DNA of 34,529 nucleotides from Acidobacteriota bacterium (GCA_023265015.1 JAHFUO010000008.1:9729-44257); one strand, 5' to 3'; shown: positions 14,739 through 19,664, counted from the stretch's first letter. Numbers and translations are program-made. The notes: a model not told the origin generated them from the letters alone.

Positions 14739-15857
14739 ATGCCGCACCGCGCGCCAGGATCCACAGCCACATCCCGCCAGCAGCACCTGTCAGGCAAGCC
14801 GATTCGCTATTACCGTCCGCGCGGTAGCGCCGACATTCACCATTTGATCGACGAAGGATTCCAGGCGTTCAACGCCGCGCGGCTCGGCGAGGCCTGCCGT
14901 ATCTTCGCCGACAAGATGCTGCTGCCCGAGCACGACACGACGATCGCCCTCACGATGGCGGGGGCGATGACGCCCGCGGGTCTCGGCGGCTGCGTCGTGG
15001 AGATGATGGAGCGCGGCCTGGTCGACGTCGTGATCAGCACGGGCGCGAACCTGTATCACGACCTCCACTACGCCCTGAACTTCACGCTTCATCGTGGCTC
15101 GCCCTTCGTCGATGACGTGGAGCTGTACGAGGAAGGCATCATCCGCATCTACGACGTGCTGTTCCCGTCGAAGGTGCTGCTCGAGACCGACGCCTACATC
15201 CGCCAGTTTCTCGTCCGCTCGGGGATGAACGGACCCGTGTCGACCGCGGAGCTTCATTACGCGCTCGGTCGGGATCTCATGGCGCTCCATCCCGGGTGCG
15301 AGACCTACTCCGTCGTGGCGGCGGCGGCCGCCGCGGGCGTGCCGATCTATACCTCGTCGCCGGGCGACAGCTCGATCGGGATGAACGTCGCGTACCACGA
15401 GCTGATGAACGACAGCCGCCTGATGATCGATCCCAACAAGGACGTCAACGAGGTCTGCGCCTTCATCCTTGCCGGGAAGAAGAACGGCTGCGTGATCCTC
15501 GGGGGCGGCTCGCCGAAGAACTTCTACCTGCAGGGGCAGCCGACCCTGTGGGAGGTGTACGGAATCCCGAAGGGCGGCAACGACTTCTTCATCCAGATCA
15601 CGACCGACTCGGTCGTCTGGGGCGGACTGTCGGGCGCGACGCCCGCCGAGGCCGTGAGCTGGGGCAAAGTCAATCCCGGCGTGCTGCCCGATACCGTCGT
15701 CGCGTACTGCGATTCCACGATCGCGTTTCCGCTGCTCTGCGAATACGCCGTCGGCTCCGAACATAACCGACGCCCGCTCAAGGCGCTCGTGCACAAGCGG
15801 GACGCGCTGGTCGAGACGCTGAAGCGCGAAGCGAAGAGCGCTGCACCCCACACGTAA
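14739..15857 (+). CDS. deoxyhypusine-synthase-family protein
   Basis: The 372-residue protein keeps the hallmarks of the deoxyhypusine synthase fold: GAMTPAGLGG (75-84), STGANLYHDLHYAL (100-113), DSSIGMN (210-216), GGGSPKNFYLQGQP (255-268) and SGATPAEAVSWGKVNP (298-313). Lys310 aligns with the lysine that carries the aminobutyl intermediate in eukaryotic enzymes. Bacteria lack eIF5A, so the substrate must differ; some bacterial relatives are linked to homospermidine or other polyamine synthesis. NAD and spermidine use are inferred from the family. It is the first gene of a four-gene operon with no spacing between members. Confidence 0.9.
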   Translation: MPHRAPGSTATSRQQHLSGKPIRYYRPRGSADIHHLIDEGFQAFNAARLGEACRIFADKMLLPEHDTTIALTMAGAMTPAGLGGCVVEMMERGLVDVVISTGANLYHDLHYALNFTLHRGSPFVDDVELYEEGIIRIYDVLFPSKVLLETDAYIRQFLVRSGMNGPVSTAELHYALGRDLMALHPGCETYSVVAAAAAAGVPIYTSSPGDSSIGMNVAYHELMNDSRLMIDPNKDVNEVCAFILAGKKNGCVILGGGSPKNFYLQGQPTLWEVYGIPKGGNDFFIQITTDSVVWGGLSGATPAEAVSWGKVNPGVLPDTVVAYCDSTIAFPLLCEYAVGSEHNRRPLKALVHKRDALVETLKREAKSAAPHT

Positions 15858-16292
15858 ATGGGAACGCTTGCTTCCGAACTGGGCCCGCACGCCGAACGCC
15901 TGACCGAGCATCCCCGCGTGTACGTCGACGCGAACGTGCCGGCCGGCCTCGTGGCGTTCATGCGCACCAGGCTTCACTGGGACGCCCTCTTCGTGATCGA
16001 GCACGACGACCTGCGCCGCGCCCGCGACGGCGAGCATTTCCGCCTCGCCCGCCAGCTCCGGCGCACGTTAATCAGCTTCGATCGCGATTACCTGGACGAC
16101 CGGAAATTTCCTCCCGGTGAAAGCGGCGGCGTCGTGATTCTGACCGCGCCGGAAGAGCGCGGCTACGTTGCGCTGCTCACGCGCCTCGATCGCGAAGTCT
16201 TCCGGCCCTCGCTCGCCTCCTGTGCGCTTCCGTTCGAGGGGCGCAAGCTTCACGTGCACGTCGACTGGCCCGGCGATACAATCCAGCTGTGA
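15858..16292 (+). CDS. DUF5615-like PIN-fold protein
   Basis: The ATG follows the previous stop with no gap. The 144-residue protein resembles DUF5615 PIN-like proteins. It has VYVDANVP near the start (Asp24), HDDLRRARD (49-57) and RTLISFDRDYLDD (69-81) followed by FPPGESGGVVIL. These acidic clusters could form a nuclease-type metal site. Many relatives are putative toxins paired with a DUF433 antitoxin; no such partner is present here. The tight link to metabolic genes argues for some other role. The stop overlaps the ROK gene start as GTGA. Confidence 0.7.
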   Translation: MGTLASELGPHAERLTEHPRVYVDANVPAGLVAFMRTRLHWDALFVIEHDDLRRARDGEHFRLARQLRRTLISFDRDYLDDRKFPPGESGGVVILTAPEERGYVALLTRLDREVFRPSLASCALPFEGRKLHVHVDWPGDTIQL

Positions 16293-17167
16293 TCCTCGGC
16301 GTCGAGCTTCGCGAAGATGCCGTCGTGGCGGTGGTGGCCGACGACCGCGGCGTCGTGGCGGCGCGTGGAAAACGCGACGGGCAGAACGCCACGTCTGCCG
16401 CGGACGCGGTGCGCGCCGCGTTGTCCGGCGCATCGGTCTCGGCCATCGGCATCGCGGTACGCGATCCGCTCGAGGACGCCATCTCCGGCACGATCGCCGC
16501 CGCGGCCGGCGCCGCGGGCGTCTCGACGCCGCCCCGCATTGTCACGCGGGGATGCGCCGTCGCCCTCGGCGAATACTGGGTCGGCGTCGCGCAGGGTGCC
16601 AACCTCGTCGTTGCGCTCACCGCCGCCGATTGCGTGCATGCCGGCCTCATCGTGAAGGGGCAGCCATTCGAAGGCGCCCATGGCGTCGCGGGCGCGGCGG
16701 CGTGGCTGGCGCTGAATCCGGTCGAGCGCGAGGACTACCGCAAGCGGGGATGCCTCGAGGCGGAGATTGGCGAGGCGGGCATCGTTCGCCGCCTCGTGTG
16801 GCGAATCAAGTCCGGAGATCGATCGCGCGTGCTCGACATGGCCGGCGGCGATCTCGCGGCCATCACGGTGCACCAGATCTTCGACGCCGCGCGAGCCGGC
16901 GACGGCGTGTCGATCTCGGTCGTGCGCGACACCGCGCGCTACATCGGCATGGCGATCGCGAACCTGGTCGCGATCACCGATCCGGATATCGTGATCCTCG
17001 GCGGGCTCATGGCCGGCGCGGCCGATCAGCTGCTGCAACCCTCGCAGACGGAAGCGTTGCGGCGGCTGCCACGAACCATCGCGGACTCGCTGACGGTCGC
17101 CGTTGCAACGCTGGGCGAAGACGGCAGCGCGCTCGGCGCCGCGCGAGCGGCCATGCTCGCCCGATGA
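16289..17167 (+). CDS. degenerate ROK-family (sugar kinase-like) protein
   Basis: The protein follows ROK layout: an N-terminal GVELREDAVVAVVADDRG strand pair, GAHGVAG near residue 129 and a late DPDIVILGGLMAG. Key sites are lost. The catalytic NDANAAALGE is RGCAVALGE (87-95), without the aspartate base. The GTGxG nucleotide loop is TAADC. The GEIGH and CxCGxxGC zinc motifs are absent. At 292 residues it is slightly short. The start is GTG overlapping the previous gene; the end overlaps nagA as ATGA. I expect a non-kinase sugar-binding or regulatory role, though a changed catalytic mechanism cannot be excluded. Confidence 0.75.
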   Translation: MILGVELREDAVVAVVADDRGVVAARGKRDGQNATSAADAVRAALSGASVSAIGIAVRDPLEDAISGTIAAAAGAAGVSTPPRIVTRGCAVALGEYWVGVAQGANLVVALTAADCVHAGLIVKGQPFEGAHGVAGAAAWLALNPVEREDYRKRGCLEAEIGEAGIVRRLVWRIKSGDRSRVLDMAGGDLAAITVHQIFDAARAGDGVSISVVRDTARYIGMAIANLVAITDPDIVILGGLMAGAADQLLQPSQTEALRRLPRTIADSLTVAVATLGEDGSALGAARAAMLAR

Positions 17168-18384
17168 TCGTTCTCGCCGGCGGCGACATCGTCCTGCCGG
17201 ACCGCATTCTCGCCAGCGCGTCACTCATCGTCGACCAGGGCCGCATCGCCGCGATCGAATCAGCATCTGCCTCGCCCGCCGGTGCGACGGTCGTCGACGT
17301 GCGCGACTGCTACGTCGTGCCCGGCTTCATCGACGTGCACGTCCATGGCATCGAGGGTCAGGACACGCTGGACGATGGAGGTGCGATCGGTGCGATCGGT
17401 GCGACGGGTGCGACGGGTGCGATCGGCGGGATCGCGTCGCGCCTGCCGCGCTACGGGGTGACGGCGTTCTGTCCAACGACCGTGGCGTGCAGTCCTCGAG
17501 AGCTGCGCGCGGTGCTCGATCAGGTTGGCCGCGCGCGGGTGCACAGGCCGCGCGGAAGCGCCCGCGTGCTGCCGGCTCACCTCGAAAGCAACTTCATCAA
17601 TCCCGCGTACAACGGTGCGCAGCCGCGTGCCTGCCTGAGGCTGCCGGATGACCAGCGAGGCGAGGGCGACTTCACGGGCCGCGACATCCTGAGGGTGATC
17701 GAAGCGGGCCGCGCGGACGTCGGCATCATCACGATTGCGCCCGAGCTGCCGGGTACGCTCGACCTGGTGCCCGCCTTCGTGCGCGCCGGGCATCGCGTGT
17801 CGGTAGGCCACTCGGGAGCAGACTTCGACGAGGCGATCGCCACGATCGATGCGGGCGCCCGCCACGCAACCCACCTGTTCAATCGAATGACGCCGGTGAC
17901 GCATCGCGCCCCCGGCCTTGCCGGCGCCGTGCTCTCGCGCGAGGAGGTCACCGCTGAGCTGATTTGCGACGGCTTTCACGTGCACCCCGCGATGAGCCGC
18001 GTGGCGATCGCGGCGAAGGGGGTTCACGGCGTCATGGCGATCACCGACGGCACGGGCGGATCCGGACTGCCCCCCGGATCGACCGCGCGGCTGGGCGGAC
18101 GATCGATACGCGTGTCCGATCAGGCGGCGCTGCTGGACGACGGCACGCTTGCGGGAAGCACGCTGACGATGGACAGGGCGTTTCGGAACATCGTCACGAT
18201 GTTCCAGGCATCAATCGCCGACGCGGCGATCCTCTGCTCGACCACGCCGGCGCGCGCGCTCGGCCTCACCGGGTTTGGCGTGATCGCTGAAGGGAACGCG
18301 GCCGATCTCGTGGTGCTCGATCGCGCCTTCCGCGTCATGAGAACGTTTATCGAGGGCGAAGAGATCTACACGGCGGCCCGTTAA
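17164..18384 (+). CDS. nagA: N-acetylglucosamine-6-phosphate deacetylase
   Basis: NagA removes the acetyl group from GlcNAc-6-phosphate. The 406-residue amidohydrolase has the HxH metal motif (His59, His61), Glu141 in HLESNFINP, His216 (VGHSGAD), His237 (THLFNRM) and the catalytic Asp295 (ITDGTG). Two usual motifs differ: HLEGPF is HLESNF, and the GAH that contacts substrate is GAQ (151-153). Residues 73-90 are six Gly-Ala-Ile/Thr triplets encoded by a 9-base tandem repeat, in a loop after the HxH strand. These changes leave some doubt about the exact amino-sugar substrate. It ends the four-gene operon; no nagB or transporter is near. Confidence 0.88.
   Translation: MIVLAGGDIVLPDRILASASLIVDQGRIAAIESASASPAGATVVDVRDCYVVPGFIDVHVHGIEGQDTLDDGGAIGAIGATGATGAIGGIASRLPRYGVTAFCPTTVACSPRELRAVLDQVGRARVHRPRGSARVLPAHLESNFINPAYNGAQPRACLRLPDDQRGEGDFTGRDILRVIEAGRADVGIITIAPELPGTLDLVPAFVRAGHRVSVGHSGADFDEAIATIDAGARHATHLFNRMTPVTHRAPGLAGAVLSREEVTAELICDGFHVHPAMSRVAIAAKGVHGVMAITDGTGGSGLPPGSTARLGGRSIRVSDQAALLDDGTLAGSTLTMDRAFRNIVTMFQASIADAAILCSTTPARALGLTGFGVIAEGNAADLVVLDRAFRVMRTFIEGEEIYTAAR
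17380..17433 (+). repeat. 9-base tandem repeat inside nagA
   Basis: Six consecutive units of GGTGCGATC or GGTGCGACG (the last is GGCGGGATC) keep the frame and encode Gly-Ala-Ile/Thr triplets. A prone-to-slippage tract of this kind can vary in length between strains. Confidence 0.85.
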
Positions 18385-18397
18385 GGGCCGCCCTACG

Positions 18398-18538
18398 CCC
18401 GCTACGCCCGCGTAGACCGGGCCTTCACGGCCCGGCATCATCTCCGCCCTATGCCCGCGTAGACCGGGCCTTCACGGCCCGGCATCATCTCCGCCCTATG
18501 CCCGCGTAGACCGGGCCTTCACGGCCCGGCATCATCTC
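18398..18538. repeat. three tandem copies of a 47-base hairpin unit
   Basis: Units begin at 18398, 18445 and 18492. Copies two and three are identical and the first differs at its start. Each holds the palindrome CCGGGCC TTCAC GGCCCGG, a 7-base stem with a 5-base loop. The last copy runs into the final codons and stop of queC. Lying between the converging ends of nagA and queC, the hairpins may stop transcription from both sides. Confidence 0.88.
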
Positions 18539-19203
18539 ACGGGTTGAACGGCGTATCCCGTCGGATCGACGACGCCCGCCTCGTTGAAGCCGTCGCGCCG
18601 CTCGCGACACTTGCTGCACAACCCGCAGTGCATCCCGGCCTTCGGGTTCATGCACGAGAGCGTCAGCTCCAGCGGGACCCCGAGCTCCACGCCGATCGCG
18701 ATGACCTCGGCCTTCTCCTTCCGCGCAAACGGCGCAGCGATGCGGATGGTGTGAGCGAGACCGAGCGACAGCGCGCGCGCCATCGAGTCGAAGAATTCCG
18801 GCGTGGCGTCGGGGAACGGGTTGCCCGCGAGCGGCCCGAGCGCGATGCGCGTGATGCCGTGCTGCGCGCAGTAGATTGCAGCCTTGCTGAGGAGGATGAC
18901 GTTCCGTCCCGTCAGGTACACGTCTTCATCCGGCGTGTCGAACGCGGGCGGCTCGCCGCGAAGCGCCCAATGCGTGGAGGGATAGAGATCGCTGACGGTG
19001 AAGGTCAGTCGAGCGAGCGGAGCCAGCGACGCGAACGCCGGCGCGCTCAGGAGGCGCTCGAGCGCGGCGAGTTCCTCCGCCTCCCACGCGAGACCGGCGC
19101 TCACGTAGATCGGATGCACTGTTCCCGCGCGCGCCTCGGACGCGGCCAGCACCGCGCTGTCGAGACCGGCGGAGAGTAGAACTGCTGTCGACGCTGATAC
19201 CAT
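18532..19203 (-). CDS. queC: 7-cyano-7-deazaguanine synthase
   Basis: QueC makes preQ0 from 7-carboxy-7-deazaguanine with ATP and ammonia, for queuosine in tRNA. The 223-residue protein has the PP-loop as SAGLDS (11-16), where SGGxDS is usual. The C-terminal zinc cysteines are Cys184, Cys193, Cys196 and Cys199 (CGLCSKCRERRDGF). The stop codon and last residues lie inside the third 47-base repeat. It diverges from queD; queE and queF are not in the window. Confidence 0.9.
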   Translation of the reverse strand: MVSASTAVLLSAGLDSAVLAASEARAGTVHPIYVSAGLAWEAEELAALERLLSAPAFASLAPLARLTFTVSDLYPSTHWALRGEPPAFDTPDEDVYLTGRNVILLSKAAIYCAQHGITRIALGPLAGNPFPDATPEFFDSMARALSLGLAHTIRIAAPFARKEKAEVIAIGVELGVPLELTLSCMNPKAGMHCGLCSKCRERRDGFNEAGVVDPTGYAVQPVR

Positions 19204-19207
19204 CGCC

Positions 19208-19237
19208 TTGGGAGTTGGAAGTTGGGAGTTGGGAGTT
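19208..19237. repeat. TTGGGAG heptamer run between queC and queD
   Basis: Four units of TTGGGAG or TTGGAAG fill most of the 56 bases between the divergent genes. Confidence 0.75.
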
Positions 19238-19251
19238 ACCGCAACTAAGAT
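19222..19251 (+). promoter_or_regulatory. possible queD promoter with repeat-derived -35
   Basis: TTGGGA (19222-19227), an 18-base spacer and TAAGAT (19246-19251) precede queD. Only eight bases separate the -10 box from the ATG, so a transcript from here would have almost no leader. Confidence 0.4.
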
Positions 19252-19259
19252 TACAGAGT

Positions 19260-19664
19260 ATGTACTCGGTCACCAAGCGCATTGACTTCTGCTACGGACA
19301 CCGGCTGCTCGACTACAGCGGCGTCTGCAAGCACCCGCACGGGCACAACGCGGTGGCCGAGATCGAAGTGCGCACCGATGCGCTCGACACGCGTAACATG
19401 GTCGTCGATTTCAGCGACATCAAGCGCGTGGTGAAGAGCTGGATCGATCGCGAGCTCGATCACAAGATGATCCTGCGCCACGACGATCCCCTCGTGCAGC
19501 CGCTGCAATCCCTCGGTGAGCCGGTGTACGTCGTGGACAGCAATCCGACCGTGGAGCGGATCGCGAGGCTGATCTTCGACATCTCGCGCCAGCAGGGGCT
19601 TCCCGTCGTGCGCGTCACCGTGTGGGAGACGCCGACCTCGTGGGCCACCTACAGCGCCGCCTGA
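19260..19664 (+). CDS. queD: 6-carboxy-5,6,7,8-tetrahydropterin synthase
   Basis: QueD converts dihydroneopterin triphosphate to carboxytetrahydropterin, the second committed step to queuosine. Zinc ligands are His14, His27 and His29. The CxxxHGH motif reads CKHPHGH with catalytic Cys23, which places it in the QueD group rather than pterin synthases. WETPTSWATY near the end holds the conserved Glu. I chose the ATG at 19260 because the family begins at YSVTKRIDF; an upstream in-frame ATG at 19215 would add residues encoded by heptamer repeat. The protein is 134 residues. Confidence 0.93.
   Translation: MYSVTKRIDFCYGHRLLDYSGVCKHPHGHNAVAEIEVRTDALDTRNMVVDFSDIKRVVKSWIDRELDHKMILRHDDPLVQPLQSLGEPVYVVDSNPTVERIARLIFDISRQQGLPVVRVTVWETPTSWATYSAA

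Follow-up and report, generated by a model that had tools for sequence, protein, structure and literature searches.

The 34,529-nt stretch of DNA analyzed here, from an Acidobacteriota bacterium (GCA_023265015.1 JAHFUO010000008.1:9729-44257; hereafter the window, with coordinates counted from its first letter), contains a gene for a deoxyhypusine synthase (DHS)-family enzyme followed directly by a gene for a DUF5615 PIN-like protein, and this pair is conserved within one order of the phylum, whose members live in soil and water. In the window, the pair is continued by genes for a ROK-fold protein and for NagA, N-acetylglucosamine-6-phosphate deacetylase. The stop codon TAA of the DHS gene touches the ATG of the PIN gene, and the PIN-ROK and ROK-NagA junctions are 4-base overlaps (GTGA and ATGA, respectively). 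The first-pass annotation of this DNA had described the four open reading frames, their families and these junctions in the same terms and had taken the genes to be co-translated; judged from the overlaps, they do appear to be so. We favor, with somewhat better than even confidence, a reading in which the DHS and PIN genes form a co-translated pair encoding a SpeY-like enzyme and a probable ribonuclease (RNase), accompanied by an ordinary NagA.

The neighborhood is not unique to this genome, the point on which the first-pass annotation had asked for a check. When the PIN alignment was scanned against 84,980 species, 78 loci were obtained; the scan used exact peptide patterns, so distant relatives could escape it. 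By record title, nearly all of these loci are from Acidobacteria or Vicinamibacteria, as metagenome-assembled genomes (MAGs); a few MAGs named Acidimicrobiia, Cyanobacteria or Woeseiaceae were taken for misnamed because their gene order and identity agree with those of the remaining loci. The DHS gene lies directly upstream of the PIN gene in 71 of the 77 PIN loci that could be judged (L172, which ends too early, was left out). This figure consists of the 68 loci found by an automatic counter, two loci just beyond its distance limits (L134 and L175) and one with a partial DHS gene at the contig end (L118). PIN loci without DHS number six (L139, L147, L155, L170, L183 and L188). NagA follows the PIN unit in 59/78 loci (it is absent from 12, and seven contigs end too early), and the ROK gene is present in 32/78. 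By these counts, the conserved core is DHS-PIN, usually with NagA, and the ROK gene is optional. Among 59 related genomes, identity of the DHS orthologue is 72-89% for most of the family, and likewise for many further families of the order. In a sample of 297 genomes from the phylum, the window-type DHS was found in 24 and a strong PIN match in 20, all within one order; the two genes were adjacent in 19, DHS occurred alone in 5 of the 24, and PIN occurred without DHS at the locus in one. On the single 7.48-Mb contig of genome G037, the PIN gene adjoins NagA and DHS is gone from the locus. The PIN gene appears to be frameshifted or truncated beside a retained DHS gene in G315 and L191, where errors in MAG sequencing are possible. 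PIN relatives were found neither near the sister-clade DHS genes described below nor at the PIN-less loci.

Dozens of species show this gene order, and the tight or overlapping junctions recur as well; the arrangement is therefore not due to chance. The estimated gap between the DHS stop and the PIN start is at most 30 bases in 46/70 loci, and the overlap of PIN with the next gene is exactly 4 bases in 17/55, some start positions in these measurements being estimates from the alignment. However, the DHS and PIN genes belong to a longer syntenic block (GGDEF, sigma-54 regulator, upstream protein, DHS, PIN, NagA, QueC, QueD and haloacid dehalogenase (HAD) phosphatase) that is inherited as a whole, and adjacency by itself is therefore weak support. 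The main alternative is that the pairing is positional, with joint inheritance and no shared function, which we regard as a serious possibility, if short of an even chance. Synteny extends to the other genes of the block, the QueC-QueD and QueD-HAD phosphatase spacings are as tight as that of DHS-PIN, and either member of the pair can occur without the other, as in the 5/24 genomes, the six PIN loci and G037. Against this stand the recurrence of touching or overlapping stop/start junctions across families and the rarity of open DHS-PIN spacing, which exceeds 400 bp in only 1 of 71 loci (possibly through a misjudged start). Other junctions of the block are often open: the same distance is exceeded in 32/44 loci for NagA-QueC and in 26/59 for PIN-NagA, mostly where the ROK gene intervenes.

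The best NCBIfam model for the window DHS is NF001980, 'homospermidine biosynthesis protein'. With a distant DHS class as the root of the tree, the 78 window-type sequences group in a separate clade (support 0.875), next to a sister clade of 29 (support 0.984), two members of which were scanned and scored 557 and 520 bits to NF001980, both over its curated cut-off. Bacterial DHS homologues known as SpeY make homospermidine from putrescine and take no part in deoxyhypusine formation (PMC9992855). The window DHS shares with SpeY (NF001980/PRK00770) its family, the motifs GGGSPKNF and SGATPxEAVSWGK and the catalytic Lys, which is Lys310 (K329 in the human enzyme), within EAVSWGK, and is kept in the clade members shown. 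It is 46-52% identical to the Acidobacteriota SpeY-type representatives of the sister clade with which it was compared. It differs from SpeY in its NF001980 score (438 of 450 bits), in two switched active-site segments, in having no polyamine genes nearby and in having a DUF5615 partner. The residues fixed differently between the two clades include 249, 267, 269, 270, 271, 274, 289, 290, 293, 294 and 312, and the segments change, from the sister clade to the window type, from QTEPQIQEVLG to Q.QPTLWEVYG and from TDAR.DTGG to TTD[SQ]VVWGG. The alignment around the catalytic Lys is gapless and places residues 289-294 opposite human 308-313, probably part of the NAD and spermidine site. The Thr-Asp at 289-290 is also common to the DHS class linked to agmatinase genes, and the pattern at these positions may thus be ancestral rather than new. 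Since the surroundings of the active site differ from those in the sister clade, the window-type clade may use another acceptor.

Two further enzymes of the family were compared. Thermus thermophilus CdmS couples two agmatines to caldomycin (PMC10981699); human Asp316 corresponds to a Leu in the window DHS, as it does in CdmS (Leu286), but the window DHS scores 161.1 bits to NF002699 (cut-off 500), and no evidence points to agmatine for the window DHS. Eukaryotic and archaeal deoxyhypusine synthases share the family and the catalytic Lys, but the window DHS departs from them at the residues aligned with human His288 (Asn here), Asp313 and Asp316, and no eIF5A match was found in the genome. The best reading is a divergent SpeY-type aminobutyl transferase, a prediction that, like every catalytic activity considered here, is drawn from sequence. 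The earlier argument, which left the acceptor open on the ground that eIF5A does not occur in bacteria, holds in so far as no eIF5A match was found, but it overlooks SpeY (PMC9992855) and agmatine coupling (PMC10981699).

Other DHS-family proteins were also seen. A third DHS class in the order adjoins an agmatinase gene (L105 6086-8040 and L106 643-2632). A second, very divergent DHS-family protein, approximately 25% identical, is encoded on contig C55 of the window's own genome (L083 4318-5331) and at L098 8690-9664; both copies have GGGIAGDF where the window DHS has GGGSPKNF, and the L083 copy reaches no NCBIfam cut-off. Contig C157 of the window's own genome encodes, between TilS-like and QueA-like genes, a GSU2086-family protein that matches DHS weakly (400.8 bits to NF052581; L084 9075-10022). 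Two plasmid DHS proteins aligned as references showed 25-30% identity and belong to other classes.

Polyamine genes were sought family by family in the window's own genome, the assembly of which is 92% complete. eIF5A (PF01287) gave no match, and the same search was positive in three archaeal controls; S-adenosylmethionine (AdoMet) decarboxylase, pyruvoyl arginine decarboxylase and OKR-type decarboxylase likewise gave none. The genome encodes one arginase-family protein and only two PF02784 proteins, both read as diaminopimelate decarboxylases. The lack of matches to eIF5A and AdoMet decarboxylase fits a role in polyamine metabolism that is neither hypusination nor spermidine formation. A second PF02784 (ornithine/arginine decarboxylase-family) protein is encoded in 11/14 relatives, as a long SpeA-type protein in most of those inspected, and agmatine is therefore probably available in the group. 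At the sister-clade loci, a gene for ornithine decarboxylase, pyruvoyl arginine decarboxylase or agmatinase lies beside the DHS gene in 6/30.

In the reading that we favor, the unit would be a long-standing, co-translated DHS-PIN pair, most often with NagA behind it and at times with a ROK pseudokinase. With bound NAD, the SpeY-like enzyme would oxidize a diamine donor, bind the aminobutyl group to Lys310 as an imine and then transfer it to an amine; from putrescine or agmatine, the product would be homospermidine or a close relative. The PIN-like protein would act as a metal-dependent RNase through Asp24, Asp57, Asp75 and Asp77, in a housekeeping rather than a toxin role, and NagA would carry out the usual deacetylation of N-acetylglucosamine-6-phosphate.

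Several results weigh against this reading. The 438.2 bits of the window DHS to NF001980 fall narrowly below the curated cut-off of 450, and nine of the fixed differences between the 78 window-type and 29 sister-clade sequences lie at residues 267-294. No polyamine gene of the types searched was present at any of the 78 window-type loci, and a putrescine- or agmatine-forming decarboxylase was not found in the window's own genome, at the completeness given above. Some genomes encode both the window-type DHS and the agmatinase-linked class, a redundancy if homospermidine were the product of each. For the PIN-like protein, a Foldseek search of its model against the PDB returned no structure at E <=0.001, so the proposed nuclease activity is read from family membership and conserved residues. 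We also considered that the DHS enzymes of the window clade may have a donor or acceptor of a new kind, other than two putrescines, and may act jointly with the co-translated DUF5615 RNase, for instance through a polyamine-type compound governing the action of the RNase on RNA; this we judge unlikely.

DUF5615 is a member of the PIN clan in Pfam. Asp24, Asn26, Arg36, Arg53, Arg54, Asp57, His60, Arg69, Asp75 and Asp77 are invariant in 60 orthologues of the PIN-like protein. An AlphaFold2 model showed a confident alpha/beta structure (predicted local distance difference test (pLDDT) 90, predicted template modelling score (pTM) 0.84) in which Asp24 follows the first strand and Asp75/Asp77 follow a later one, the placement expected of PIN-like domains. 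A sequence-profile search against the PDB gave no match, only weak hits to unrelated proteins. From these features, the protein is a probable metal-dependent RNase. Our literature search found no paper on DUF5615 and none joining polyamine, operon, PIN domain and homospermidine.

Small antitoxins of the COG2442/DUF433 family are frequent partners of PIN-family proteins (PMC2701414, PMC4963859), which raises the question of whether the PIN-like protein is the toxin of a VapBC-like module with a neighbor as its antitoxin. It shares a PIN-like family and acidic residues with the VapC-type toxins. However, no antitoxin-type gene or small DNA-binding partner lies at the locus, in agreement with what the first-pass annotation had noticed; the neighbors are DHS and either ROK or NagA, all metabolic. 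Moreover, the protein is confined to one order, tblastn against 72,556 plasmid records revealed no copy, the gene outlasts the loss of DHS or ROK, and the protein carries two conserved additions, an N-terminal helix and a C-terminal GRKL tail. A toxin role is, accordingly, very improbable.

The C-terminal tail, PLxGRKLHxHxDW, contains Lys130, which is at least 90% conserved. Given the adjacency and tight coupling of the two genes and the lack of an eIF5A match in the genome, the DHS-like enzyme might modify this residue in a bacterial counterpart of eIF5A hypusination. Yet the Lys is kept in 7/7 genomes that have PIN but no window DHS at the locus, and several genomes that have both genes carry another residue in its place (L116, L148 and L190), so its conservation does not track the enzyme. 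We rejected Lys130 as the target on this basis, in a comparison that concerns this residue among possible modification sites, and the counterpart of hypusination seems highly unlikely to us.

The ROK-fold protein lacks the catalytic Asp, as had been observed, and also the phosphate motifs in all eight sequences aligned (the window protein and seven orthologues), yet it retains the conserved segment WLALNPVEREDYR...GIVRR.VWRIK.GD. It belongs to the same family as the ROK sugar kinases and NagC/Mlc, but it has neither their catalytic Asp and phosphate motifs nor a complete zinc motif or DNA-binding domain. By its sequence, the ROK-fold protein is a conserved pseudokinase and an optional part of the unit. 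NagA is intact, with HxH, Glu, two His and Asp all present. The NagA gene contains an in-frame 9-bp repeat of about 6 copies at 17380-17434; a 12-residue insertion near HxH goes with it and is absent from the 16 orthologues aligned. The usual NagA motif is HLEGPF; all 17 aligned NagA proteins of the group have HLESNF and keep the catalytic Glu.

The adjacency of NagA to the unit in 59/78 loci would suit a single four-gene pathway that places an aminobutyl group on an amino sugar or cell-wall component. The comparison of loci does not support this idea: the ROK gene is missing from more than half of them, PIN and DHS have each been lost singly, and among the conserved genes at these loci, none for sugar binding or the cell wall was seen. 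In the f4 family of the order (L081 1872-7031), NagA, a DUF4097-like gene, a SpeY-type DHS gene, an ornithine decarboxylase-like gene and QueD stand in place of DHS-PIN, so that NagA occupies the same region and DHS is paired with a decarboxylase-like gene. Nothing that we found points to an amino-sugar or cell-wall acceptor, as had been guessed, and a pathway of this kind is extremely improbable.

Table 1. Genes of the DHS-PIN unit and its immediate flanks in the window.
Feature	Position	Strand	Remarks
DHS-family enzyme	14739..15857	+	372 aa; PF01916, 251 bits
DUF5615 PIN-like protein	15858..16292	+	144 aa; PF18480, 35.9 bits (cut-off 23.8)
ROK-fold protein	16289..17167	+	292 aa, GTG start; PF00480, 77.6 bits
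NagA, N-acetylglucosamine-6-phosphate deacetylase	17164..18384	+	406 aa; TIGR00221, 241.2 bits (cut-off 225.65)
Function-unassigned protein, divergent, with hydrophobic N-terminal segment	14193..14675	-	no Pfam match; upstream of DHS in 37 loci
QueC-like protein, convergent, conserved downstream neighbor	18532..19203	-	PF06508, 104.8 bits; syntenic
QueD-like protein, conserved downstream neighbor	19215..19664	+	PF01242, 111.2 bits; syntenic

The sigma-54 regulator of the syntenic block is also present upstream of the window DHS gene. Promoter and terminator scans revealed nothing clearly over the chance level. Between NagA and QueC, at 18402-18538, a 47-bp unit is present in three nearly identical copies in tandem (98% match), each containing the palindrome GACCGGGCCTTCACGGCCCGG, for which the chance expectation is zero copies.

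The known role of bacterial DHS homologues is in polyamine metabolism; here, one entire order retains a distinct clade with altered surroundings of the active site, apart from polyamine genes and coupled to a PIN-like protein. The polyamine-type enzyme and the probable RNase may be linked in function. If the two proteins work together, polyamine-type chemistry would be linked to RNA turnover, and the DUF5615 nuclease-like proteins would gain a role outside toxin-antitoxin modules.

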